DNA of 64,000 bases, taken from the NCBI RefSeq assembly GCF_032854445.1, contig NC_088297.1, forward strand, positions 5,517,991 to 5,581,990, in the 5' to 3' direction. Below are positions 1 to 63,400 of this stretch, piece by piece; positions within the stretch are counted from its first letter, which is position 1, and every line of letters starts with the position of its first letter. The position numbers and the translations under genes were made by a program. This DNA comes from Liolophura sinensis. Lineage: Eukaryota; Mollusca; Polyplacophora; Chitonida; Chitonidae. The notes below the pieces were generated by a model, which saw only the letters and a list, made by a program, of their open reading frames with translations, did not search any database and was not told the DNA's origin.

Positions 1-1055
1 ACTTACCGTATACATAACGCTATTGCCTTTTCCACATGTTCACTAAAACACACTTACCGTATACATAACGCTATTGCCTTTTCCACATGTTCACTAAAAC
101 ACACTTACCGTATACATAACGCTATTGCCTTTTCCACATGTTCACTAAAACACACTTACCGTGTACATAACGCTATTGCCTTTTCCACATGTTCACTAAA
201 ACACACTTACCGTTTACGTAACGCTAGGGCCTTTCCACATGTTCACTAAAACACACTTACCGTATACATAACGCTATTGCCTTTTCGACATGTTCACTAA
301 AACACACTTACCGTATACATAACGCTATTGCCTTATCCACATGTTCACTAAAACACACTTACCGTGTACGTAACGCTAGGGCTTTTCCACATGTTCACTA
401 AAACACACTTACCGTGTACATAACGCTAGGGCCTTTTCCACATGTTCACTAAAACACACTTACCGTGTACGTAACGCTAGGGCCTTTTCCACATGTTCAC
501 TAAAACACACTTACCGTGTACGTAACGCTAGGGGCTTTTCCACATGTTCACTAAAACACACTTACCGTATACATAACGCTATTGCCTTTTCCACATGTTC
601 ACTAAAACACACTTACCGTGTACATAATGCTAGGGCCTTTCCACATGTTCATTAAAACACACTTGCCGTGTACATAACGCTAGGGCCTTTCCACATGTTC
701 ACTAAAACACACTTACCGTGTACATAACGCTAAGGCCTTTTCCACATGTTCACTAAAACACACTTACCGTGTACATAACGCTAGGGCCTTTTCCACATAT
801 TCACTAAAACACACTTACCGTATACATAACGCTATTGCCTTATCCACATGTTCACTAAAACACACTTACCGTGTACGTAACGCTAGGGGCTTTTCCACAT
901 GTTCACTAAAACACACTTACCGTATACATAACACTAAGGCCTTTTCGACATGTTCACTAAAACACACTTACCGTATACATAACGCTATTGCCTTTTCCAC
1001 ATGTTCACTAAAACACACTTACCGTGTACATAACGCTAAGGCCTTTTCCACATGT
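1..1055 (-). repeat. 51-bp minisatellite containing a 5' splice-site motif
   Basis: About 20.7 tandem copies of a 51-bp unit; the window opens inside the array. Units differ by a few substitutions, mainly two variants (GCTATTGCC versus GCTAGGGCC). Read on the minus strand most units contain ACG|GTAAGT, a near-consensus 5' splice site, preceded by about 35 nt that match the right-hand flank of the array. The array therefore looks like an amplified exon-intron boundary of a minus-strand gene (see candidate exon at 1023-1089). Confidence 0.95.
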
Positions 1056-1089
1056 TCGCTTTGACTATAGTCAAACCGAACATTATTTG
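1023..1089 (-). other. Candidate coding exon next to the 51-bp array
   Basis: On the minus strand this stretch is open in the frame that ends CG|GTAAGT and starts after a possible acceptor ending GGTCAG. The translation includes the short peptide SEHVEKALALCTR. The last 35 nt are the same as the exon-like part of each repeat unit at 1-1055. The peptide is not recognised and the acceptor is weak, so this may be ordinary flanking DNA. Confidence 0.25.
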
Positions 1090-27398: not shown

Positions 27399-27871
27399 CG
27401 GGCCGTCTCTAAGTTTTTTCTGTTATCAGGCGCCAGTTTCATTCCAAAGCCGCAAGAAAATCAAGGTAAAGTGAATTAACAGGACAAACTGTTTATAATG
27501 ATTCACTGAATGGTTGTGAGAAGGGTATAGGACTTAAAATAGTACTGTTTACACAAAATACAACCAGCTAGCTTAGCCTCAACAACAACAACACAATTTA
27601 CAATGTTCTAACCTTCGCAGTACTTTGGCGTTTGTAAGATGGAAAGTCTCTCCCGAGAACTGCTTTGTAGTGTAATACGCCTTACTTTAATCCCGTAGAG
27701 ACTTGTTTATGTATGCACATGTTGTAAGCTTTTAAAACATAATAGGTCTATCAGCTGTAATTTAGTTTATGGATAGGTAGACTTATTCATTTAAATGTGA
27801 ATGAATACATGTATGATTATATTCATTTTTCAATGATGTTCTAATTTTGTTTAAACAGTTCGCCTAGAGCC

Positions 27872-29809
27872 ATGAATTGCAAGAGAAAGAAACAAACTGT
27901 GGCTGAAGATATCAGTGATGCAAAAACCAGAAAGGAGGACACTCGCCTTTATTGTTTATGTAAACAATTAGATGATCCTGATAGAACAATGATCCAGTGT
28001 GATTTTTGTGACGAATGGTTCCATCCTGCCTGTGTTGATCTGGAAGAGGGTGAAGTTAATGATGTTGGAAGATGGTACTGCCCACCATGTACAGATGTTA
28101 TGGCACTAAATCCATCACTGTCGCGTAAAGGTATAGAAAACGGGGTCATTTTACTTCTACTTACTTTTGGGCACATTAATATTATATTGACTGTTTATTG
28201 TAATGACTTAATTGATCTGACAGTGTTAATATGTTAGGCTATTTTCAGTCAGCTGTTACAATCATATTTGTAAAGTAACACGTCAGGACAGAAAAAGTTA
28301 ACCCAGTCATGTGGTAATTTGTCAAAACTGCGTTTCAGGTTTCTTGGGTTTCAAGGGAGAGTAGCACCGAAAGAGGGATGGGGAGAAGAATTTTTGTTGG
28401 AGGACATCGATGAGTCTGTCATTCAAGTAGAAACCAAAAGACATCGTGTTGAAGGCTGGAACCTGTTTCGAGAAGGTCGTGTTACTGGACTGAGCAGCAA
28501 TAAAAACGGAAATTATGTATATTTCCGTAGTCAGTGTCAGGCATCCATGAGACAGCTGTCCTATAATGTGTTTATCTGTTTCAAGGGCAGTCGAAGGCTT
28601 AAGTGGTCAACCTGTTCGTGCCCTGCTGGAATCGATGGCCAGTGTAAGCATCTTGTGGCAACTTTGTATTGTTTGATAGATCTGTACAGACTAGGGATAA
28701 ACAAAATCCCAGATGCTAAGACATGCACACAAAAACTTCAAATGTGGCATGTCCGAAAACCTGTGACAGACGAACCACTGCTTTTTTCTGACATAAACTT
28801 TGTTAAGCATGACCCAGAGAGACCAGCAAAAGGGGACCTTGGTTGTAGTGTGAAGCAACATAATCCTGTACTTGAGTTTGCAAGCACTGTGACACAGGTA
28901 AAAATTCAGAAACTTGTTAACTTATATGATTCCAATTGTATTAAGTTACCAGTCATAGACACCATCAGGACCAATCAATGTATTCCAGTGTTGCCTAAAC
29001 AGCAAATGGATGGAAGCCTTCATTCTGAACTTTTTGAATTAATGAATGGAACAGAATATAACTTTAGTGTGGATGATTACACAACTAAATTGACTGCATC
29101 AGAGAAACAACACTACAGTTCCATTGTGGAAGTAAATATTGAAACATCTAGATGTATTGAAAAGAAAACTCGATTACAGAGTAAGAGTAAGTTTTGGTTT
29201 GACCAGCGCCAACATAGAATAACGGCATCCAACTTTGGGACTTTCTGTAGACTAAAATCATGTACTAATCCAATAACAACTTTCAATAGAAAGCAGAAGT
29301 TTTTCACGTGCAGAAGTGTCCGCCATGGTGTAGATTATGAGTCAGCTGCATTTGCCAAGTATAGTGAAGTCCAACCCTGTGAAAGTTGCTCAGCAGGTTT
29401 AATAATAAATCCCAAAATACCATATTTAGGTGTTAGTCCTGATAAAATTGTGCTTACCAACAGTGAATTGAAACTTGTAAAAGTTAAGTGCCCTTACAGT
29501 GTGTTTCAAAAGAAAGTCAAAATTTGTCAACAAATTAAGGAAAATAATTTCTACTTAAAATATGTTGACGGAGAGGTGAAACTGTCTGAGACTCATGATT
29601 ATTTTTATCAAATTCAAGGTCAGCTTAATATTACTGGTGTAAATATTTGTGATATGGTGGTGTTTGTGCCTCCAGATGATATTGTTATTGTTTCCATTAA
29701 AAAAGACAAACACTTTTTTGAAAACAAAATGCTCCCAAAGCTATCTGATATTTATTTCCATCATTTGTTGGCTAGCTTTGTTGATCGCCTCCAATACACT
29801 CATTTGTAG
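27872..29809 (+). CDS. PHD finger - SWIM - YqaJ nuclease-like protein (transposon-encoded)
   Basis: Two coding exons. Exon 1 starts at ATG 27872 (GAGCCATGA, just after an acceptor ending TTTAAACAG) and encodes a PHD finger at residues ~28-75 with the Cys4-His-Cys3 pattern (YCLC, QCDFC, FHPAC, YCPPC). Exon 2 continues to 29809. The junction is inferred: donor AAAG|GTATAG at 28130 with acceptor TTTCAAG at 28355 keeps phase; the stronger-looking CAG at 28338 does not. The product would be about 570 residues. A SWIM zinc finger (CSCPAGIDGQCKHL) lies near residues 172-190. A YqaJ-type PD-(D/E)XK nuclease fold runs from about 370 to 520 (HRITASNF, GVSPDKIV, KCPY, QIQGQL). The ExK motif reads KVK (codon AAA at 29480-29482), so the catalytic Glu is lost. 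Presumed role: accessory nuclease or DNA-binding partner of the neighbouring transposase. Poly(A) signal AATAAA at 30099. Confidence 0.85.
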
Positions 29810-30488: not shown

Positions 30489-31995
30489 CTAACTTTTAAA
30501 TAATGTACCTGTAAAGTTTGACAAATGGCCACACACAAGCCAAACTTTCTCTATCATTGGACACAAAGATATAGGAACAATGTTCCGAATGATCTCAAAT
30601 TCCTTAACTTTTCTCACTGCTCGTTCTACATGAACTCGCACAGCTGCAACTCCCCTTGAGAATTTTAACTGTTCATCTGTGAACTGCTGTTGTCCATGCA
30701 GAAATGGTGGAATAATAAGAGAAGCCCCCCTTCTTTCAACATCTTCGCGAATGTCAAATCCCCGATCAACCATGAGGCTATCACCATCTTCCAGTAAGTC
30801 TAGGAGCCCACAGTGACGAATAATCTTTTTGTCAGAACATCTCCCAGCATATAATGGCGAAATAAAAGTAAGTTGACCTACCGGAGAAATTGCAATGAGT
30901 CCCTTCGCAGTGTTGTGGTGTTTGTAAGATGAGAAAGTCTCTCTTTGACAGTCAGATGCAGATGGTTGTTCAATGAATAGTTCTGTACAGTCCACAATAG
31001 CACGTGTTGTTGAATAATGTTCTCTAAAGCATGCCGGCATGGTCTTTCGCACTTGTTCAGCTTTTGGCCAGATTGGTAATGATCGAAATCTATCTGCTAA
31101 AAAAATAATCCATGTGTTGACAATTTTAGATACATGACCCTCAGATATGCTATACAGATCACCAATTAACCTTTCTTGTAGTCCTTTACGAAGACGCACT
31201 AGTGTTATGAAGAGCTCTTCCATTGGTGAGAGTGATCTAGATGGTCCACGTTTCTTTAATAAGTCATACGGTGTACCAGATGATGTGTTCTCTGTGCCCA
31301 CATAATATAAAAAATTACATTCTGGCTGAAGAAACTGAAAAAAACATGATAAAGATATATAAGACTGAAATCCTGTATAGTACTTTATGTCACTGTCAGA
31401 ATTGCAAAATCTGAGCAAAGTAAACTTTTCTTCATAGCGCAGTGTCATCAGATTTAAATTGGTCTGTAAAACAGAGGCTTTATCAGGTGAGACGCTAGGT
31501 TCATAATCTTCTAAACTGTCATCCCCACTACTGCTGCTCTCCAAATATCTTCTCAAAGTTGTAGGATATATAGTATACATAGCCCCATCAGTGTATTGGC
31601 GGGAATAAGAATGCTCCTCCACAGAAAACTGTTGAAGACCTGTAGCTGCTTTGTTCTCCTTGTTCTCGGATGCTACTGAGGAAATCTGTTTCTTAATCTT
31701 TCTCCTAGAATGCTGAGTGGAGGTGCCTTTACACCAATGAAAAACTGTTGGAATGGCATCCTTCACAAGACGTCTTATGCCTTGGTGTTTTGGATAACAA
31801 TCCTCTGTAAAATGTAAAGAGCACACACGAGTGTGTCTGTTTATGGCAAAATCTTTACCAATGTCTCTCCTTATGTTCACAATCCATTTTTTTTACCAAA
31901 TCTTTGTCCGAAGGGAAACTGTGAAATGACAAATGTTTACAGCTCTCAAGTCTAGTGTCACTTGAACACAAAGGCACACGGCAATGATGAGGCAT
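30489..31995 (-). pseudogene. THAP-domain DDE transposase, one-base frameshift in THAP domain
   Basis: Reading leftward from ATG at 31995, the first 35 codons encode the start of a THAP zinc finger (MPHHC, then PLC). The frame then breaks in a run of eight A (plus-strand T8 at 31887-31894). Seven would keep frame into the next part, which carries the conserved Trp, VCSLHF (the C-x2-H half of the C2CH site) and DAIPTVF, the THAP AVPTF-like motif. The remaining ~460 residues are a DDE_Tnp_4-type nuclease. The three acidic residues are visible in IVDCTE, LMVDRGF and HVERAV, with conserved surroundings such as SSYKHHNTAKGL. The C-terminus (HLSNF) is complete. The gene converges on the YqaJ gene within the same transposon. 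The frameshift may be genuine decay or a homopolymer sequencing error. Without it the protein would be about 500 residues and apparently functional. Confidence 0.87.
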
Positions 31996-45078: not shown

Positions 45079-48000
45079 TCAGCGTTTTTTGGATGTTACA
45101 GCTTTTGCCTTCTCGTATCCTGCAAAAGAAAAAAAGGAAAAGTCAGGTAAGTTTCTTTCTCAAAAAAAAAAAACAAGTATTTAAACTACGATCTGTAAAT
45201 ACTGACATCTTCTGTTGTAAAGGCGTGGAACTGTATAAGAATATTTACAGCTCACAACATTTTAAAATGATTATCCGATTTTATCACTAAACCAAAAATT
45301 TCTTTTTAATATTAGTCAGAGATTGGCCACAATGGCTCCACTACCTAATATGAACTGTATTTGTTCAATCTTTTGCAGTTTAATGCCATAATCAAGACTC
45401 TTATCACTTGTAGGATGGCAGCCAGTTTATGACTGGAGGAAACTGTAGTGCCTGGGGAAAACTGTAGTGCCTGGAGGAAACTGTAGTGCATGGAGGAAAC
45501 TGCAGTGCCTGGAAAAAAACTGTAGTGCCTGGAGGAAACTGTAGTGCCTGGGGAAAATTGTAGTGCCTGGAGGAAACTGTAGTGCCTGGGGAAAATTGTA
45601 GCACCTGGAGGAAACTGTAGTGCCTGGAGGAAATTGTAGTGACTGAAAAAAACTGTAGTGCTTGGAGGACATTGTAGTGCCTGGAGGAAACTGTAGGGCT
45701 TGGAGTGCCTGGCCACACAAAAGACATCAACCAGCTAGATGTAATGTCACCGAGGGCCCACTAACACTGAGAGCAGGGGAATCCCCAAATTTCATGTTCA
45801 AAGCCAGGATTGGATCTGCATCTCCGGAGTCCTAGCAAAACTTAAACCCAGTAACCATATGGTACTGCAATGAGATCATATGATGTGAACCATATGACCA
45901 TACACATACGATTTATCACATATCACATACATACAGAAGTCACCCTTGAAGAGAATATGGACATTTTCACTGTGTAGAATGCTAGGAGTATTGACATTTC
46001 CTGTATGGTCAGATTACACTCCATGTCATAAATTATCCGTGAGACAAAATTCTCCTTGTCTTTATGTCCTAGTTAGGCTGAGTATGCTACATGTAGACCT
46101 CAACCACACACAACAACAAGGCCATCTCAAGGTTGCTGGCAGACATTCCCTGGTATGACTGGAGAGGAGGCCAGCATGTGCTGCGAGAGCAGGCTGACCA
46201 CTCGGCACAAAGGTATGGACCACTGCATCATACCACCCCCCACAACAACTCCCGCCATATAAACCTTGTGTTTGTCACACCTGATATAAAGTATTTATTT
46301 ATTTATTTATTTATTTATTTGATTGCTGTTAAACACCATACTCAAGAATATTTCACTTATGCGACGACGGCCAACATTATTATGGTGGGTGGAGGCCGGG
46401 GGAAACCCACTACCATCCGCACAGACCCTGATATAAAGTACTCACTCCACCAGAATCCTGACAGCCCCTCCCCCAGCAGGTAGATGCTAATGAGGAATGC
46501 CCAGAGGGTGAGGAAGAACACACATCGCTGAGCGTTGTTCAGAACTTCCAGGACTGGGTACACCCAGAAATTGGTGTAATAAGCTATCCACAGTATCCTG
46601 GAAAAATAAGACGTGTAACTAGTAGAAATATAGTGTGATAAAGCTATCCACAGTGTCCTGGAAAAATAAAACGTGTAAATTGTAGAAATATAGTGTGATA
46701 AAGCTATCCACAGTATCCTGGAAAAGAACATGTAACTAGTAGAAATATAGTGCGATACAGCTATCCACAGTGTCCTGGAAAAAAAACATGTAACTAGTAG
46801 AAATATAGTGTGATACAGCTCTCCACAGTATCCTGGAAAAATAAGACGTGTAAATTGTAGAAACATAGTGTGATACAGCTCTCCACAGTATGCTGGAAAA
46901 ATAAAACGTGTAAATTGTAGAAATATAGTGTGATAAAGCTATCCACAGTATCCTGGAAAAGAACATGTAACTAGTAGAAATATAGTGTGATAAAGCTCTC
47001 CACAGTGTCCTGGAAAAAATATGTAACTAGTAGAAATATAGTGTGATAAAGCTATCCACAGTATCCTGGGGGAAAAAGTGTTAAGTGTAGAAATATAGTG
47101 TGACAAAGCTATCCACAGTATCCTGGAAACGTAAAACGTGTAAATTGTAGAAATATAGTGTGATAAAGCTATCCACAGTATCCTGGGGGAAAAAAGTGTT
47201 AAGTGTAGAAATATAGTGTGATAAAGCTCTCCACAGTATCCTGGAAAAATACATGTAACTAGTAGAAATATAGTGTGATAAAGCTATCCACAGTGTCCTG
47301 GAAAAATAAGACGTGTAAATTGTAGAAATATAGTGCGATACAGCTATCCACAGTGTCCTGGAAAAATAAAACGTGTAAATTGTAGAAATATAGTGTGATA
47401 AAGCTCTCCACAGTATCCTGGAAACGTAAAACGTGTAAATTGTAGAAATATAGTGTGATAAAGCTATCCACAGTATCCTGGGGGAAAAAAGTGTTAAGTG
47501 TAGAAATATAGTGTGATAAAGCTATCCACAGTATCCTGGAAAAATACATGTAACTAGTAGAAATATAGTGTGATAAAGCTATCCACAGTGTCCTGGAAAA
47601 ATAAGACGTGTAAATTGTAGAAATATAGCGCGATACAGCTATCCACAGTGTCCTGGAAAAATAAAACGTGTAAATTGTAGAAATATAGTGTGATACAGCT
47701 CTCCACAGTATCCTGGAAACGTAAAACGTGTAAATTGTAGAAATATAGTGTGATAAAGCTCTCCACAGTATCCTGGAAAAAAACATGTAACTAGTAGAAA
47801 TATAGTGTGATAAAGCTATCCACAGTATCCTGGAAAAATAAAACCTGTAACTAGTAGAAATATAGTGTGATAAAGCTATCCACAGTATCCTGGAAAAATA
47901 AAACCTGTAACTAGTAGAAATATAGTGTGATAAAGCTATCCACAGTGTCCTGGAAAAAAAACATATAACTAGTAGAAATATAGTGTGATAAAGCTATCCA

Positions 48001-51000
48001 CAGTATCCTGGAAAAAAACATGTAACTAGTAGAAATATAGTGTGATAAAGCTATCCACAGTATCCTGGGGGAAAAAAGTGTTAAGTGTAGAAATATAGTG
48101 TGATAAAGCTATCCACAGTATCCTGGAAAAATACATGTAACTAGTAGAAATATAGTGTGATAAAGCTATCCACAGTGTCCTGGAAAAATAAGACGTGTAA
48201 ATTGTAGAAATATAGCGCGATACAGCTATCCATAGTGTCCTGGAAAAATAAAACGTGTAAATTGTAGAAATATAGTGTGATACAGCTCTCCACAGTATCC
48301 TGGAAACGTAAAACGTGTAAATTGTAGAAATATAGTGTGATAAAGCTCTCCACAGTATCCTGGAAAAAAACATGTAACTAGTAGAAATATAGTGTGATAA
48401 AGCTATCCACAGTATCCTGGAAAAATAAAACCTGTAACTAGTAGAAATATAGTGTGATAAAGCTATCCACAGTGTCCTGGAAAAAAAACATATAACTAGT
48501 AGAAATATAGTGTGATAAAGCTATCCACAGTATCCTGGAAAAAAACATGTAACTAGTAGAAATATAGTGTGATAAAGCTATCCACAGTATCCCGGAAAAA
48601 AACATGTAACTAGTAGAAATATAGTGCCATACAGCTCTCCACAGTATCCTGGAAAAATAAAACGTGTAAATTCTAGAAATATAGTGTGATAAAGCTATCC
48701 ACAGTATCCTGGAAAAATAAAACGTGTAAATTGTAGAAATATAGTGTGATAAAGCTCTCCACAGTATTCTGGAAAAGTAAAACGTGTAAATTGTAGAAAT
48801 ATAGTGTGATAAAGCTGTCCATAATATCTCCGGTTTCTCCCATATAGCATGTTGCATATGAAGTGAAAATATTCTTGAGCGGTGTGTAAAACTCCAATCA
48901 AATAAATAAATAAATAAATAAATAAATGCATGTATCTATATTATCAAGAGAGAAAAGATATATATACAGTATGACAGGAGAGAGAACAAACCTATCACAG
49001 CACTGTCATGTGCTGCCACTTCTTAGCTCTGCTAAATGTACTCACCAATAATTATCATCTATTATTAATGATTTCATAGGTAACCATTGGAATCAGGCGG
49101 TGTATATTTACAGGGAACAAAATCCTTTACACCAAAATCAGGTGAAATTTCTTGCACTGGTTGATGCCTCAAGGCAACCCCCCCTCCCCCAACCCGAAGC
49201 AAAATTTTTTGACATAAGAAACAATAACATGAGTGTGTTTTAAAATCTTGACTTCAAAATCCTGGCAATAGGGATAACTGTGGTGTACTTACCAGGCTTG
49301 GTATACAGATGCAAAGACAATAGTGGTTAACATGGCCTTTCCCCGGGGTGGGTATTCGTGGTACACCATGTACTTGTCCAACAGCAGGAATGGTAAAGGT
49401 ACAGTGTGCTACAAAAGCAACAGCAACAGAATGACTGCTTGACGTTTAACGTCGTTCTTAAACTTTTCAGTCATATGATGATGAAGGAATCCTTACAGTG
49501 CATGTAATGTGCCTCCTTGTTGCAGGACAGATTTCCACAGATCTTTTACCTATTGCTGCTTCACTGAGAACCATTATACTGATACTGGTCAAACAGTCGT
49601 TGCACTATCCCTTTCATGCTGAACACCAAGCCAGGAAGTTACAACTTCCTCTTTTAAAGCCTTAGGTGTGACTAGACCTAGGATTGACCCTGGATCTACC
49701 GCTCCCAAAGCGGACACTCTACCAACTGTGCTATCGGGGCTGGTCAACAACAACAACAGATGATTTACTGCTAATAGCATTGATAAAAAAAGCCACTGAG
49801 TGAGTGCTTCAATACTAATTGATTTATTTATGAGCGTGTTTGGTTCATGTTCACATGTGCTCGAGAACTTTGTACTTCATGTATTATGACTGTAATCAGG
49901 TTTACAGGTGCTTGCTGAACTTATTCATTCATTTGATTTGAGAGGCTTCTGTGTCATTGTGCTGCGCTAGCACGCTAACCACTAGGCCACGGAGGCCCCC
50001 TAAGCCTACCCTAATCTAACTAGAACATATATGTACTTGTATTCTACTGCGTACCATGATGTGGTTGAGCCAGGGTGGGATAATGCCGTCCAGTTTTCTC
50101 GGGAACACCAGCTCTCTGTCTACGTAAAAGATTGCCCAAAATGTTGTCACCACAAACTGAGGAGAGAAAAAAAAATACACAAACTTAGAAAATCTTTTTC
50201 AGGACTAAACACCTTAAAAACAGCAGTCATAAAATACAGCGGTTTAACCAATGACATGCGACTTGCGGTCTCATACATTATCTATTCAAGAGGAGAATAA
50301 AATGAAGAACTGAAGCAGAACCTATTGGCTGTCAAGGATGTCAACTGTCACTTGCCACTAAGGCCATACTTTAATGTTTCCACTGGTCATACTGTTCATG
50401 CTCTCTGTCTCCTGGTTTCTTCTGCAAGAGTTATTATTCATGCTTTGCCATTCAAGGTAAGGGGAGATAATACCGATTCACAGGGATACAGAATTCTTTA
50501 TGATTGGCTGGTGTAAGAGACATGCAAGTCAAGACCAGGCAAGTCCAGGCTAGGCTGAATTTTAGGTATCACGGATGTATTTAAGCCTGACCAAAGTTGC
50601 ACACATTAACCCAGGAAATCTTATCTCCACTGTCAGCCAATTAGCTTCGATTCTGCATCCCTTTAATAACACAAAAGATACCAGAAGACGATTACTGCTC
50701 TGAATTTATCTTTTAAGTCACAAAAACCCATAAGCAGTTTCCAGTTTTGACATATGAAAGAGAAAAACTCAAGTGGTGTAAAAAGTAAATGAAAACTATG
50801 ATTTCTAATATGAGAAGTTGGGGGGATGTATTGCAAAAAGTACACGTATTAAACAGTGACTACTTTGGTGTATTTCACCTAAGCTATTTTCAAGTTATTT
50901 AAGCTATTTTCAAATGAGATACTTGGCTTGATTTTGATCCATTCATCCACACTATAGGGGCACATCAGATTTTCTTACAAAGTTTGACAAATTCTTCATC

Positions 51001-56507: not shown

Positions 56508-59500
56508 TCATAGCTTCGTGTCGCTAGAAAATTCGTTAAGATTTGCTTTATTGTCAGTAAGGTCTATATCTGTCTCTATGGTCGTCCGCGGCTCGCTGTA
56601 GTCTGACCGGCTGCTCCTTTCAGAGAGGTCCGAGAAGCGACGGCTGTCCATTTGTGACTCGGTCGAGGAGGCCTGGCGTTTGGCTTTGCCGTGTTTTCGA
56701 GTATGAATCATCACGGTCCCGCTATCGGTGGACCCCGCAGTGTTGCTGCGACGCCGAAGTTGCGCAGATTGAGAGCCGCTGTTGGCGATTGACACGCTTG
56801 ACGTGCGACGCACCGCTTTGGTGAGGATGTGGTTGGTGGTCTGCGACCTCACTACATCGGCTCGGTTTTTCTCCGGGTAGAAAAGAATGATGCGAACCTT
56901 GGGTACGATGAGGAAGAGGAGCTTCGGCAGCGCGGCGAAGGTTGCCGAAAAGCAGAACCACGCCGTTCGGGCTTTTCCGTGAGAGCCAAGATAAGCCGGA
57001 ATGGAGCCGATCCAAACCAGAATCATGACGAACATGGTGAAGCTGATGGAGCGAGCCTCATTGAACGCTTCCGGTAGTTTCCGAGCCTTGAACGCCAGGA
57101 AGGTGCAGATGATGGCGATGAGACAGGTGTAGGACATGGCGATGAGGTGGATGGTGAGCCATGGCGTCCCGCAGTCGACAATGACGCGACGCGGTTTGCT
57201 GTAATCGTAGGTCTCCTCAGGAGACATCAGGTAGGTGGACATGCCCACGATGCTACCTTCCACCAGCGTCATCGTGATTAAGAGGAGAACTTGCTTCTGT
57301 TCGGAGCGTCGTCGGTCGGAGTGGATCGCCGAGAGGCTGGACATCTTTGCCGTGAATACCATCAAGATCCGCCTGGTTTTCGCGAACATGACAGAGATGC
57401 AGACGGTGTAGACGAATCCGAAGATGTTCGGTTGGATTTTGCAGAGGACGTCGTTTGGTCTTCCGATGTAGAGGAATGGATTCAGGAAGCAGAACCCCAG
57501 AAAAACTAACAACAGGAAGGTCAGTTCTCTGTTCGACCCCTTCACGACCGGAGTCTCACGATATCGGATGAAGACCCCAAGACAGAAGACATCGGCGCCG
57601 AAGAGCAGAAGAGATATGACAGAGGCGGCGATGGCGAGGGTGTCCTCCCAGGTGAGGTACTCCAGGGGTAGTTCAACGCACGATGTATTGTTGGTGTTGT
57701 TCGTCCATCCCTTTCCAAATACGTCTTTACAACTCGAACAAACCTCTTGATTTGTGGAATTCGTAAAGGTGTCTGAAAAAATGAAAATATAACGAAATGT
57801 ATACAACGAAAAATGAATCTGCAATCCGAAAAATCCTGCATATTACATTGTCAAGTCTATCAAAATACTTAACGGAAAAGAAACTTCTTAAGATCTGATT
57901 ATTGCTTATTATAGGATACAAAAAAGGAATTGCAAAACTGAGATAATAGTTTTAAGGGAAACCGGAAACATTATGCCAAAAAACACGAGAAAGATACTTT
58001 TCGTTGTTAATATGACTAAGATGTACAGCATAGAGAGAAAAACCAGAGCAGCGACGACAGTGTGATAGCGAGCAAATGGTCACACGTAGCCGGTGAAATA
58101 CGGCCTCTTGTCAGTTTACCTGAATTAGGGTTTTATTCTAACTGTTCATGAAAATACTAGCACATTACACGCCCCCCTAGCACCATGGCTTCAGCAGAAT
58201 CATGTACAAAAATGCAGTGATGTTATACGTAATTTATTAGACGTCACTGGTCTAGAATTACTCAAAGTGCTGTGTTTTATCACATTTAACATACAATCAC
58301 ATTAAAACAAGACATATTTTATATATTTTGATAAGCATTCTATTTTATGCATATTTTCCGTCAACAGACATAAAGTTTAGGACATGACGTCAAGGGTGAA
58401 TTTACTGGAAACGCGGCACCAGCTTAAAGCCCCTCCCCCTCCCCCCCTCCCATTTCTGACACCCTCATAACTAGCATCGTTGAAAGCAACTTAATTTCCG
58501 AACTGACTCCTGGGTTTATGAAAACTGTAGTTTAAAGCCATTCTACGCCCCAAGAAGAAAACGGGGAAGCTTTTTTGTACTTCCCTGTGTCAGGACATCT
58601 GTATATTAGACGACGAAAAACCCAAGGTTTCATACATCCTTAGTTTAGTATCCTTAAGTCAGTGGTTTCTTGTTATCACTTAAATATATATGATTTGAAA
58701 ATTCTGTTCTTGAAACAATCGCACCCAATAGACAGGGTTATATGTAGATTAATATGGTACAATTGATATCACTGAGTTTAATCATATCGTTCTTGTGTTG
58801 AATCTTGAACACCATAGTTGGGGGCCTCCGTGGCTCAGTCGGTTAGCGCGCTAGCGCAGCGTAATGATCCAGGAGCGTCTCACCAATGCGGTCGTTGTGA
58901 GTTCAAGTCCAGCTCATGCTGGCTTCCTCTTCGGCCGTGCGTGGGAAGGTTTGCCAGCAACCTGCGGATGGTCGTGGGTTTTAACGGAGCTATGCCACCA
59001 TAATGCTGGTTACCGTCGTATAAGTGAAGTATTCCTGAGTACGGCGTAAAACTCTAATCATATAAATAAATTTCTGTTTCCTGTTTCTGTTTCTTTGTTT
59101 TGTGTACATGAATTTTAGGTACAAGCGTGTGTGTGTGTGGGTAAAGCTGTGTTCTGCATACCGCGTTGCAAATATAACGACACAGCGAATCACAGTGACG
59201 ATGAAGAAAAAAGACTGTTTAACAAACAGAATCTCTGGTCACACCCAGAAGGCGTAATATTTAAAAACGTTGCGATGCTGGCATCCAGGAAGAGAGCATA
59301 CCTTCATCGCAGAGGACACAGGCCCAGCAGCATTTAGAGGAACTGTAGAGAATGCGGTATCCTGGGGTACAGTCCTCACTACAGGCCGAGACGGGAGCTG
59401 ACCCATAGCCGTTATTCCACTCTTCAAAAGTAAGAGTCGTTTACTTAGTTCTTTGGTAAGATTTAGATAACGCCATGACTAAAATATTTATTAAATCGAT

Positions 59501-62500
59501 TTTTGCTTAACGCAGTACTCGAGAATTTGGCACTTACACAATGACAGGCAGTTTTAAGGTTGGAGGAAACCGGAATTCCCGGGGTAAACCACCCACCTTT
59601 GACACGTTAATGACTAACTTTTCCACGTATGGAATTTCCAGACATTGTGAGTTTTAGTTTTACATGTTGTCGATACAGTATTTGAATTATGGAGATCGAA
59701 TATTTTGAATATATCTCACCAATTTTGTGATCTGCGACAGTCAAAGTTCCGTTCCAGCTACCAACGTCAACGTACTTTAAACCATTCCCAGCCTTCTGGA
59801 CGTTGGTTATGACGTATTTGGCTGCAGAGACATCCCCGTTATGGTCAAATGAAACTGTTCCCTGGCAGCCTTGAAAACTCACATTGTGCAAGGACTGGGA
59901 GAGATCCCCGTGCACAATGTGTCTTTTCTCGCAGGAACCGGAATCGCAGAGCAGACTGTGAAGAGCATGCGCAATGGCGTACACCGCGTCGACGACGTTC
60001 GACACCTTCCCGTTCGTGAACAAGGTGTTGTTTATTACCGAAGATCTGTTCTCGAGCAATTCCCAACAGTCCAGTTGTCTGGCCTTGGCCTCGAAATGAC
60101 AGTGCAACTTTTCTTCCAGGTATGTCTTTAACCACGGATTGTTTCTTAAAAGATTCTCGCCTGAAATGTCTCTCAGATAATCAGAGTATCCCGGCACTGT
60201 TCCCCTGCTGGATATAATACCCAGCATTCCCTGCACAACTTCCGGTGGCTGTTCTAGAGTGGAAGCCGTGTCGGCCCAACTCTCGGAAGCTATAAAAGTT
60301 TTCCCCTTGAGTTTATATCGACTGATTTCCTGCAAGCAGAGAAATTGGAGAAATGTCTGCTTAAAACAGCTTTAAATACCTGCAGATGTGTTCCACTCAG
60401 TTAAAGAGCTGTAACTGAGCAGTTCTACAAGTCAGCTGTCGGTTAATCGGTTAAGTTTTTAACACCCTGTGATTTGATTTGGGCTCCCTAGCATCTTTTA
60501 ACATGAGCCATTGACTTAACGAAGGACCAGATTACAAAAGGACACGAAACCTTTCGCGGAATATCGTTGCAATGGGGCATTTGCGCTGGTTTTTATTTGA
60601 GAGAGCAATAAAACAAGGAATCACGGCAGAAAAGTTTGAAAAGTTGTGAATTCCTATAATTTTGGCCGGTTCCTTTTAACGGTGACCTGTGTACCAGAAA
60701 AATCGACCTCAACAATCGAGGCCTCGTATTCATCAAGTAACTTTAGTCATAAATTGCAGTGCTTAAAAATGTACACTCAAAAGAGTACTCGGTTAGTACA
60801 TTGCTTTGCAGTAAAGAATCAGTGTACAAATTTTAACCTTCCTAAAGCAAGCATTTCAATTTTTGCTGTGTTTGAATATTTGACTTAATGCATAAGCTGA
60901 TTGATAAATTCAGATCCAGATCAGAATGTGATAGATAAAATACATGTGATCCGACGTACAAACAGACAGACGGACAAAGACGGAGGTAGGCCAATAAAGC
61001 GGTGCGTTTCCTGACTCACCCCCAACAACGACGAGGCTTCGTGTTCTGGTAGGAACGCAAGCACCACTGAGGATTTTCTGCCTTCCTCCGATCGCTGGAG
61101 GCGGTCTACAAACCTCTTCAGGGCGCCTCTACTTCCGCCAGAAGGAAGAACATGGCGGACGGCTAGGCAGATTTTCTGCTGTTTGATTTCTTCCTGGAAC
61201 TCTTCGACACCTGCAGAGACGCGGAGCCAGGAAGACGCAAGAGTGAGGAATTAGGATTTGACACCACATTAGAAGTATTGTCGTGACGAGAAGCAAGAAA
61301 GGTTAGCATAACCAGTTAGTTTCAAGTTAATCGTGAAAGTTCTTCGTTAGAACCAGACTCATCGAGGCTAGAATAAATGGCATTTACTTTGCAACTCCAG
61401 CTTCCTACAAACACTACATATTACCCCTATGAAATTTACATGACGACGTGCTTATATAGATTTATTGAATGTATACTCAAAATACCGTCTAACAAAACTC
61501 ACCAGCGTCTCTATGAACTCCCTTAGCCCCCGTCCCTTCACCATACAAACACAAGCTTTCCCCATACATGTACCCACCATGCAATCACCCAACTCATTAT
61601 ACACTCACCAACTTCCCATACACTCACCCAACTCATCATACACTCACCCAACTCGCCCAACTCTCACCCAACTCACCATGCACTCACCCACTGCCCAATA
61701 CACTCATCCAACTCACCATGCACTCACCCAACTCCCCAAGCACTCACCCAACTCCCCCAAACACTCACCCAACTCCTCAAACACTCACACAACTCCCCAA
61801 ACACTCAAAAAACTTCCCAAACACCCACGCAACTCCCCAAACACTCACCTAACTCACCAAACACTCACCAACTCACCATGCACTCACCCAACTCCCCATA
61901 CACTCACCCAACTCCCCATACACTCAACCAACTCGCCAAACACTCTTCCAACTCACCATGCACTCACCCAACTTCCCAAACACACATCCAACTCACCATG
62001 CACTAACCCAACTCCCCAAACACTCACCAAACTCCCCAAACACTCAAACAACTTCCCAAACACTCACCCAATCCCCATACATTCACCAAACCCTCATACA
62101 CTCAACCAACTCACCTAACTCAATATGCACTCACCCCACGCCCCAAACACTCACCCAACTCGCACCCAACTCACCATACACTCACCAAACTCCCCAAACA
62201 CACACCCAACTCCCCAAACACTCACCCAACTCCCAAAACACTCACCCAATCCCCATACATTCACCAAACCCTCATACACTCAACCAACTCACCGAACTCA
62301 TCATATACTCACCAACTTCCCCATACACTCACCCAACTCCCCAAACACTCACCGAACCCCAGAAAACTCACCAAATTCGCACCACACTCACTACATACTA
62401 ACCCAACTCCCCGCTTACCCAACTCACTATGCACTCACCCAACTCACGTAATCCCCATATATTCACCCAATCCTCATACACGCACCAAACTCACCCTACT

Positions 62501-63400
62501 TATCCAACTCACCATATACACACCCATCTCCCAACTCACCATGCACCCACCCAACTCACCATTTACTTACCCAACTCACAATACACTCACCCAACTCACT
62601 ATATACTCATCCAACTCACCATGCACTCACCCAACTCACCATACACTCACCTAATCCCCATATATTCACCCAACTCATCATACACTCACCCCACTCATCA
62701 TGCACTCACCCAACTCACCATACACTCACCCAATTCACCATGCGCTCACCCATCTCACCATACACTCACCCAACTCCCCAAACACTCACACAACTCCCCC
62801 AAACACTCACCCAACTCATCATGCACTTACCCAATTCACCAAACACTCACCCAACTCCCCAAACACTTACCCAACTCCCCAAACACTTACCCAACTGACC
62901 ATACACTCACACAACTCCCCAAACACTCACAAAACTTCCCAAACAATCATCCAACTAACCATGCACTCACCCAACTCACCATACACTCACCAACTCCCCA
63001 AACACTCAACCAACTCCCCAAACACTTACCCAACTGACCATACACTCACACAACTCCCCAAACACTCAGACAACTTTCCAAACAATCATCCAACTAATCA
63101 TGCACTCACCCAACTCACCATACACTCACACAACTCACCATGCACTTACCCCAACTCACCAAACACCCACCCAACTCCCCAAACACTCACCCAACTCCTC
63201 AAACACTCACCCAACTCATCATACACTCACCAACTCCCCCATACACTCACCCAACTCAACAAACATTCACCAACTCCACCATACACTCACCCAACTCCCC
63301 ATACACGCTATCAGTTGCCAACGTTGACAAATATGTCCAGTTGAAATGGTGTACCAAATCCACAATGACCTTGACTTGAAGGTCATCCGAAGGTATAGTC
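56508..63400 (-). CDS. Metabotropic-glutamate-type class C GPCR, 5' end missing
   Basis: Five minus-strand exons join in phase: 63291-63400, 61020-61210, 59720-60329, 59302-59421 and 56508-57772, giving 764 residues of a receptor whose N-terminus lies beyond the window. The first three encode the Venus-flytrap ligand-binding domain (TIPSDDLQ, FNWTYLSTLAT, YGELGVEEF, SESWADT, NNPWLKTYL). The fourth is the cysteine-rich domain (CSEDCTPGY, KCCWACVLC). The last has seven membrane segments, PVVKGSNREL after TM1, FNEARSISFTMF before TM6, VPKVRIILFYPEKN after TM7, and a ~110-residue Ser/Arg-rich cytoplasmic tail. The flytrap resembles mGluRs; the TM6 region (IPAYLGSHGK) is closer to CaSR-like receptors. 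The pocket Asp of mGluRs (SDGWAD) is Glu here (SESWAD). Expected at the plasma membrane; ligand not certain. The intron after the first exon is filled by copies of its own 5' splice site. Confidence 0.93.
58010..58640 (+). repeat. Dispersed repeat, family R, copy 2 (in receptor intron)
   Basis: The left 220 bp match 5740-5960. The right part (AAAACTGTAGTTTAAAGCCA, CCCAAGAAGA, then TTTCATACATCCTTA) matches 63590-63880. These may be two halves of one ~600-bp element, or two elements side by side. Confidence 0.65.
58822..59069 (+). mobile_element. SINE family A, near full length, in receptor intron
   Basis: Head GGGGGCCTCCGTGGCTCAGT (clear A box) and TCGTTGTGAGTTCAAGTCCA; the core is shortened (GGGTTTTAACGGAGCTATGC) and the tail ends in a short AAATA run. 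Confidence 0.95.
59484..59595 (-). mobile_element. SINE family A, diverged 3' half
   Basis: CGCAGTACTCGAGAATTTGG, CACTTACACAATGAC and GGAGGAAACCGG with many changes. Confidence 0.7.
61560..63290 (-). repeat. ~20-bp minisatellite made of a receptor 5' splice site
   Basis: About 1.73 kb of a 20-21-bp unit, roughly 80 or more copies, filling most of the 2.08-kb intron between exons 63291-63400 and 61020-61210. In the receptor's sense direction a unit reads TATGGGGAGTTGG|GTGAGT or variants. The receptor exon itself ends TATGGGGAGTTGG|GTGAGT, so the unit is a copy of the exon's last bases plus the donor. Most units keep GGTGAGT. The plus strand is C-rich, giving long Thr-His-Pro reading frames that are artefacts. 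Confidence 0.96.

Follow-up and report, generated by a model that had tools for sequence, protein, structure and literature searches.

Minisatellites that straddle splice junctions

Tandem duplications of exon-intron boundaries, named "mirages", have been described in the amphioxus genes for Adh3, the globins BflGb6 and BflGb9, troponin C and PGBD5 (PMC3087553, PMC3902484). The Adh3 units are given there as 10–72 bp, 5' and 3' boundaries are both affected, and the Adh3 data together with reverse transcription-PCR of the globins are taken as suggesting that splicing remains regular; length instability is also reported (PMC3087553, PMC3902484). Intron 18 of human ABCA7 contains a variable number tandem repeat (VNTR) whose 25-bp unit starts at the exon 18 donor and whose copy number ranges from about 12 to 427; a single retained unit is reported to give a frameshift and premature stop independently of VNTR length, and longer arrays to raise the skipping of exon 19 (PMC5954066). 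Tandem genomic duplication is reported to have produced a new intron, for example in potato RdRp (PMC4974935), and an intronic minisatellite of C. elegans carries splicing-regulatory motifs, with no splice-junction origin seen in the account given of it (PMC4039745). Here we analyze a 20-bp minisatellite at a donor of a class C G-protein-coupled receptor gene in 64,000 nucleotides of the chiton Liolophura sinensis (assembly GCF_032854445.1, contig NC_088297.1, positions 5,517,991 to 5,581,990, forward strand); this whole stretch is called "the window", and feature coordinates are those of the window unless another locus is named. The assembly was first published as that of Liolophura japonica (PMC11068029), later corrected to L. 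sinensis (PMC12441733).

A 20-bp array at a receptor gene donor

The features at the junction are as follows (a slash marks a splice position throughout).

63291-63400, minus strand: receptor exon A, 110 nt, ligand-binding domain, peptide TIPSDDLQ...DSVYGELG
63285-63290, minus strand: GTGAGT, taken as the authentic 5' splice site by homology
61577-63306, minus strand: 20-bp minisatellite found by Tandem Repeats Finder (TRF), about 85 copies, the last 16 nt of exon A included; gene-strand unit GTGAGTGTATGGGGAGTTGG
63256-63258, minus strand: in-frame TGA, 33–35 nt past the true donor
61211-63290, minus strand: intron between exons A and B, 2,080 nt, 82% array
61028-61210, minus strand: receptor exon B, peptide GVEEFQEE..., 3' end uncertain by 2 nt
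59607-60371, minus strand: open frame with a further ligand-binding receptor exon (Pfam ANF_receptor, E = 3.2e-18)
56508-57842, minus strand: open frame with the seven-transmembrane receptor exon (Pfam 7tm_3, E = 1.3e-61)

An initial annotation, made from the letters of the window, had placed a receptor exon at 63291-63400 ending in TATGGGGAGTTGG/GTGAGT, and this is confirmed on the minus strand (TTGG/GTGAGT, with 63290 as the first intron base); upstream, exon A follows the acceptor ...GTACCACAG/GACTATACC, and exon B begins at 61210, directly after ...CTCTGCAG/. Its assignment of the exon to an mGluR-like receptor also holds: exon A matches Pfam ANF_receptor (E = 1.3e-6), and the joined exons align with mGluR2 without a gap through the splice (VYGELGVEEF against DYGETGIEAF; E = 6.1e-12 in a search of the PDB). 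Exons A and B match other mGluRs, CaSR and taste receptor type 1 member 3 as well, mGluR2 being the best PDB match, and a rough 202-aa join of an upstream frame with the two exons gives a match at E = 8.7e-32. The ANF_receptor region and the 7tm_3 domain lie on the same strand and in order, as they do in class C G-protein-coupled receptors; judged by these similarities the gene is a class C receptor and mGluR-like, and we do not call it a true mGluR. Exons A and B each occur at one place in the assembly.

TRF reports a single array at 61577-63306 (period 20, 85.4 copies, 75% matches, score 1437), which, like the amphioxus mirages, spans an exon-intron boundary: it crosses the donor to cover the last 16 bases of exon A and ends 366 nt short of exon B, with non-repeat intron in between. 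The array had first been described as beginning at the donor, but its TRF start lies within the exon, at 63306. The exon end matches the repeat unit at 24/24 positions over 16 exon and 8 intron nt, and the match falls to 28/33 when 25 exon bases are included and to 33/48 with 40. That the similarity stops inside exon A is expected if a junction-straddling segment was amplified, and the derivation of the minisatellite from the junction, first put forward in the initial annotation, stands on these matches. Since the mGluR2 alignment is gap-free across the splice, exon A is likely the source of the repeat, and the direction of copying would be from exon to array. The units average 84% identity to a 20-mer, and the middle third of the array is the most diverged; the exact 19-mer TATGGGGAGTTGGGTGAGT is present only 3 times in the array, where some 80 repeats of the same string had been claimed, the remaining copies having diverged. 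A search of the genome (609,464,459 bases, 632 contigs) lists only these 3 places, though such searches for exact words may skip simple repeats. The unit is rich in G runs (G is 47% on the gene strand), and a count of G-quadruplex motifs gave 6 non-overlapping ones if loops of up to 12 are allowed and 0 with loops of up to 7.

The array contains 78 GTRAGT hexamers, the true donor among them, where 300 first-order Markov shuffles gave 10.7 on average and 20 at most, so its repeat units carry a splice signal, as those of mirages do. Besides the true donor there are 81 extra GTRAG donors, all of them predicted sites, in agreement with the earlier claim of dozens of U1-binding sites beside the real one. 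The in-frame TGA, which had been expected about 35 nt past the donor, precedes the next GTRAG; all 81 extra donors lie beyond it, so each of these alternatives would include the TGA and truncate the receptor, as had been suggested for any later donor. Strong decoy donors are reported to be rare near the true donors of human genes, and intronic decoys that overlap G-triplets appear to be masked (PMC8964760); by analogy, such masking may apply to the decoys of the G-rich receptor unit.

We infer that the array is probably a molluscan mirage, in which a 20-bp segment across the exon-intron boundary of an mGluR-like gene was tandemly amplified into the intron, perhaps by slippage or unequal exchange. 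The exon-proximal donor would do the splicing, which would explain why exon A has stayed intact, and the approximately 80 downstream donor copies would be unused or weakly used decoys; any use of a decoy would bring in the TGA and presumably lead to mRNA decay. Most likely the expansion is neutral and is tolerated because the exon-proximal donor is the one used.

Junction arrays elsewhere in the window and the genome

The initial annotation called the receptor array the second of its kind, and the word is apt: a 3'-junction array is present in the window as well.

46566-48828, minus strand: 60-bp array (TRF), about 38 copies, 3'-splice-junction-derived, unit carrying TTTATTTTTCCAG/GATACTGTGG
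46446-46597, minus strand: AIG1-like exon, starting at the last array copy (46597); 3' end at 46446, before GTGAGT, putative

The AIG1-like exon matches Pfam Far-17a_AIG1 (E = 1.1e-9), the alignment starting at residue 1 of the 51 aa submitted, and its junction agrees with the unit at 29/30 positions over 12 intron and 18 exon nt. The array holds 31 copies of TTTCCAGGA, and parts of it are open in the frame of the exon; should splicing of the gene follow the homology, the acceptor used would be the last of about 30 like ones. Both junction types, 5' and 3', are thus found in one 64-kb window.

Three further arrays were noted nearby. A 51-bp array on the minus strand at 1-1057 continues into L081 (2732-3991) and has about 45 copies in total, most of which contain a donor-like GGTAAGT; Pfam gave no family for the 22 aa of a short open frame ahead of it, and no exon is shown there. 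A 47-bp array with ACAG/GTAAGT-like sites on the receptor strand lies upstream of the receptor gene (L082, 2963-3213) and is possibly another tandem-donor array, at that gene's 5' end. A 19-bp array at 45433-45705, minus strand, has about 14 copies of a putative acceptor-like TTTCCTCCAG unit, again with no exon shown. The window is rich in minisatellites, with 13 longer arrays covering 13% of it (picked and merged by hand from the TRF output, some short ones being dropped), so chance by itself should place a few arrays across junctions.

Fourteen tandem GGTRAGT arrays were examined in the first 3.2 Mb of contig C1, a non-random sample. Three of them start in Pfam-supported exons whose end matches the array.

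Contig C1: ankyrin-repeat exon with donor array (Ank_2, E = 2.8e-11), match 27/28 over 20 exon and 8 intron nt
Contig C1: DUF4457 exon with donor array (E = 1.8e-15), exon-end match 28/28
Contig C1: Core-2/I-branching exon with donor array (E = 1.4e-6), match 45/48 over 40 exon and 8 intron nt

The Pfam matches stop 2, 1 and 13 residues ahead of the donor, respectively, and in the Core-2/I-branching case the regular array reported by TRF starts 46 nt past the donor, yet the exon end matches the units. At C1:3114290 a chitinase-like exon is indicated at E = 0.22 only, and the array at C1:1119495, which begins with a donor-like GTGAGT, shows no exon similarity, its open frame having no Pfam family and only a weak PDB match (E = 0.059). 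No exon is shown for the remaining 9 of the 14, among which C1:535292 reaches the edge of its locus; Pfam was run on 8 of the 9 open frames of at least 25 aa, which cover 6 of the 14 arrays.

Genome-wide, three tandem CAGGTGAGT words with gaps of 8–38 nt are found 551 times, against 10 for the reversed word; the corresponding numbers are 10,097 and 2,731 for single CAGGTGAGT sites, 237 and 93 for CAGGTAAGT, and 285 and 53 for acceptor-like triplets. The first 100 CAGGTGAGT places listed, all on C1, make up 17 distinct arrays. Seven-base donor words show no consistent excess of triplets over reversed words genome-wide (2,660 against 1,724 for GGTGAGT, 1,429 against 2,030 for GGTAAGT). Among the first 100 places listed for each word, distinct arrays number 14 for GGTGAGT and 4 for its reverse over the first 5.2 Mb of C1, with one array common to both, and 13 each for GGTAAGT and its reverse over the first 8.81 Mb. 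Single 9-mers in the first 5.27 Mb of C1, a stretch that holds 100 of the 100 listed donor sites and 41 of the 100 listed reversed sites, form clusters of at least 3 in 8/59 donor loci and 1/34 reversed loci, which are small numbers. Because the counts are of overlapping units rather than independent arrays, are dominated by a few big arrays and miss unlisted places (the single-site CAGGTGAGT listing lacks some triplet places, such as C1:4536027), all of the genome-wide figures are rough, and those for repeats are lower bounds. Preferential seeding of minisatellites at junctions is not shown by them. It might be imagined that chiton junctions are favoured birthplaces of minisatellites, and that many genes carry length-variable splice-site arrays of which at least some tune the splicing of their hosts; the counts for CAGGTGAGT, CAGGTAAGT and the acceptor-like triplets hint at it, but we regard it as unlikely, and the seven-base donor words, rough as those counts are, speak against it.

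Probable neutral expansion and its alternatives

Extra donors that mattered should have kept their bases better than the other positions of the unit. For the receptor array, the hexamer at the donor ranks 2nd of 20 windows in conservation (0.90 against 0.82 for the rest), but it ranks 18/31 in the ankyrin array, 27/41 in the DUF4457 array and 42/46 in the Core-2/I-branching array, and 8/51 in the array at window 1-1057; across these five arrays, donor hexamers are not consistently more conserved than the remaining positions. In the AIG1-like array the acceptor stretch ranks 39/59. This inconsistency makes neutrality the likelier general case, with limited room for an exception at the receptor.

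Several points weigh against a harmless array with a privileged first donor. The high rank of the receptor hexamer could hint at constraint. Use of the first donor is a prediction from homology. When the array was scored against U1, as the initial annotation had proposed, 22 of its 330 GTs were predicted to pair as strongly as the true donor or more strongly; the estimate is a simple fixed-register pairing energy with the 5' end of U1. Finally, in the BA10 (Brodmann area 10) brain samples of the ABCA7 report the alternative transcripts together exceed the canonical one in 90% of cases, so that a donor array need not be harmless (PMC5954066).

One rival reading gives the array a function in splicing, as a length-variable U1 platform that sets the productive share of receptor mRNA or guards the long intron from premature polyadenylation. 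The conserved hexamer and the retention of 78 GTRAGT would fit such a device, as would the reported effect of ABCA7 VNTR length on the exon that follows it. We nevertheless consider it unlikely: the three Pfam-supported sister arrays lack such donor conservation, amphioxus mirages are reported to leave splicing undisturbed (PMC3087553), and use of the second donor in ABCA7 is described as independent of VNTR length (PMC5954066).

Slightly less probable still is that the intron was born with the array, by a tandem duplication in receptor coding sequence like that proposed in the published model for amphioxus globins (PMC3087553). A protein search of the genome with the receptor gave 7 matches, 2 to the gene itself and 5 paralogous, and all 5 of the latter align straight through the splice position within an open frame, intronless; the intron was therefore either gained here or lost there, and intron loss in the paralogues would look identical. 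The anatomy of the array speaks against a newborn intron, in that of exon A its unit takes in no more than the end, and the last 366 nt of the intron before exon B lie outside the repeat.

In so minisatellite-rich a window an unrelated intronic array might abut an exon by chance, or array sequence might have been transferred into the exon end by gene conversion, but the perfect match through the junction and the fit of the exon end to the mGluR family already disfavour both, and we hold them to be very improbable. An assembly artefact is hardly credible, for although tandem arrays can be mis-sized in assemblies, this one is reported to be built from PacBio HiFi reads with a mean length of 8,347 bp at 14X (PMC11068029), by which a 1.7-kb array can be spanned. 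A neutrally expanded mirage thus remains our preferred reading of the receptor array.

Other elements

The window also carries, at 30489-31892 on the minus strand, an open frame with THAP, HTH_Tnp_4 and DDE_Tnp_4 domains, which we take to be a Harbinger-like transposase, and, at 27845-29809 on the plus strand, a PHD finger and a YqaJ-like recombinase domain in adjoining open frames, a combination of the sort found in some animal transposons. Elsewhere in the assembly, contig C99 (108,685 bp) has 7 COX1 copies about 15.5 kb apart and is apparently a concatemer of the mitochondrial genome, of which contig C632 is a single unit (15,209 bp). The order of the mitochondrial genes is consistent with a mollusc.

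Significance and comparison with known systems

Arrays of this kind put splice-site choice to a test in nature: just downstream of a real donor lie about 80 near-copies of it, and 22 GTs among them are predicted to pair as strongly. Because such arrays recur within a single compact genome for which RNA-seq and HiFi reads are public, the advantage of an exon-proximal donor could be measured, the tolerance of 5' and 3' junction arrays compared, and seeding at junctions set against seeding in other DNA. The public RNA-seq names five tissues, with digestive gland (SAMN35319765) and foot (SAMN35319766) among the samples, and the HiFi reads are deposited as SRX20411988. They also offer animal parallels to the donor VNTR of ABCA7, which is linked to Alzheimer's risk (PMC5954066).

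Our literature search, which reached few subscription journals, found no mollusc reports of such arrays among the top-listed results, and the terms "minisatellite" and "tandem repeat" are absent from one chiton genome paper. The uniqueness implied by the initial annotation does not survive a wider comparison, since amphioxus mirages and the human ABCA7 VNTR are of the same kind. The receptor array shares with the amphioxus mirages, as far as these are described, a boundary-spanning minisatellite, an overlapping unit size and many repeats with splice signals, but BflGb6 has 6 or 3 units of 150–160 bp and the chiton receptor about 85 of 20 bp. Reports from amphioxus also cover regular splicing and length instability (PMC3087553, PMC3902484); the chiton evidence consists of genome sequence. 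The chiton is not a cephalochordate, the group in which the term was coined, but the taxon is no part of the mechanism. As in ABCA7, the array sits at a donor and a stop is met beyond the true one (PMC5954066). The VNTR is reported to open with the canonical donor GT as its first two bases, whereas the chiton array also includes 16 exon bases, and polymorphism, an effect on splicing and a link to disease are known only for ABCA7. The potato RdRp case shares tandem duplication around splice signals and differs in that a new intron is reported for it (PMC4974935), the chiton duplicates lying within an intron. The receptor array is thus the same kind of object as the amphioxus mirages; the kind was already known, and what is new is its molluscan host, its size and its recurrence in several chiton genes.

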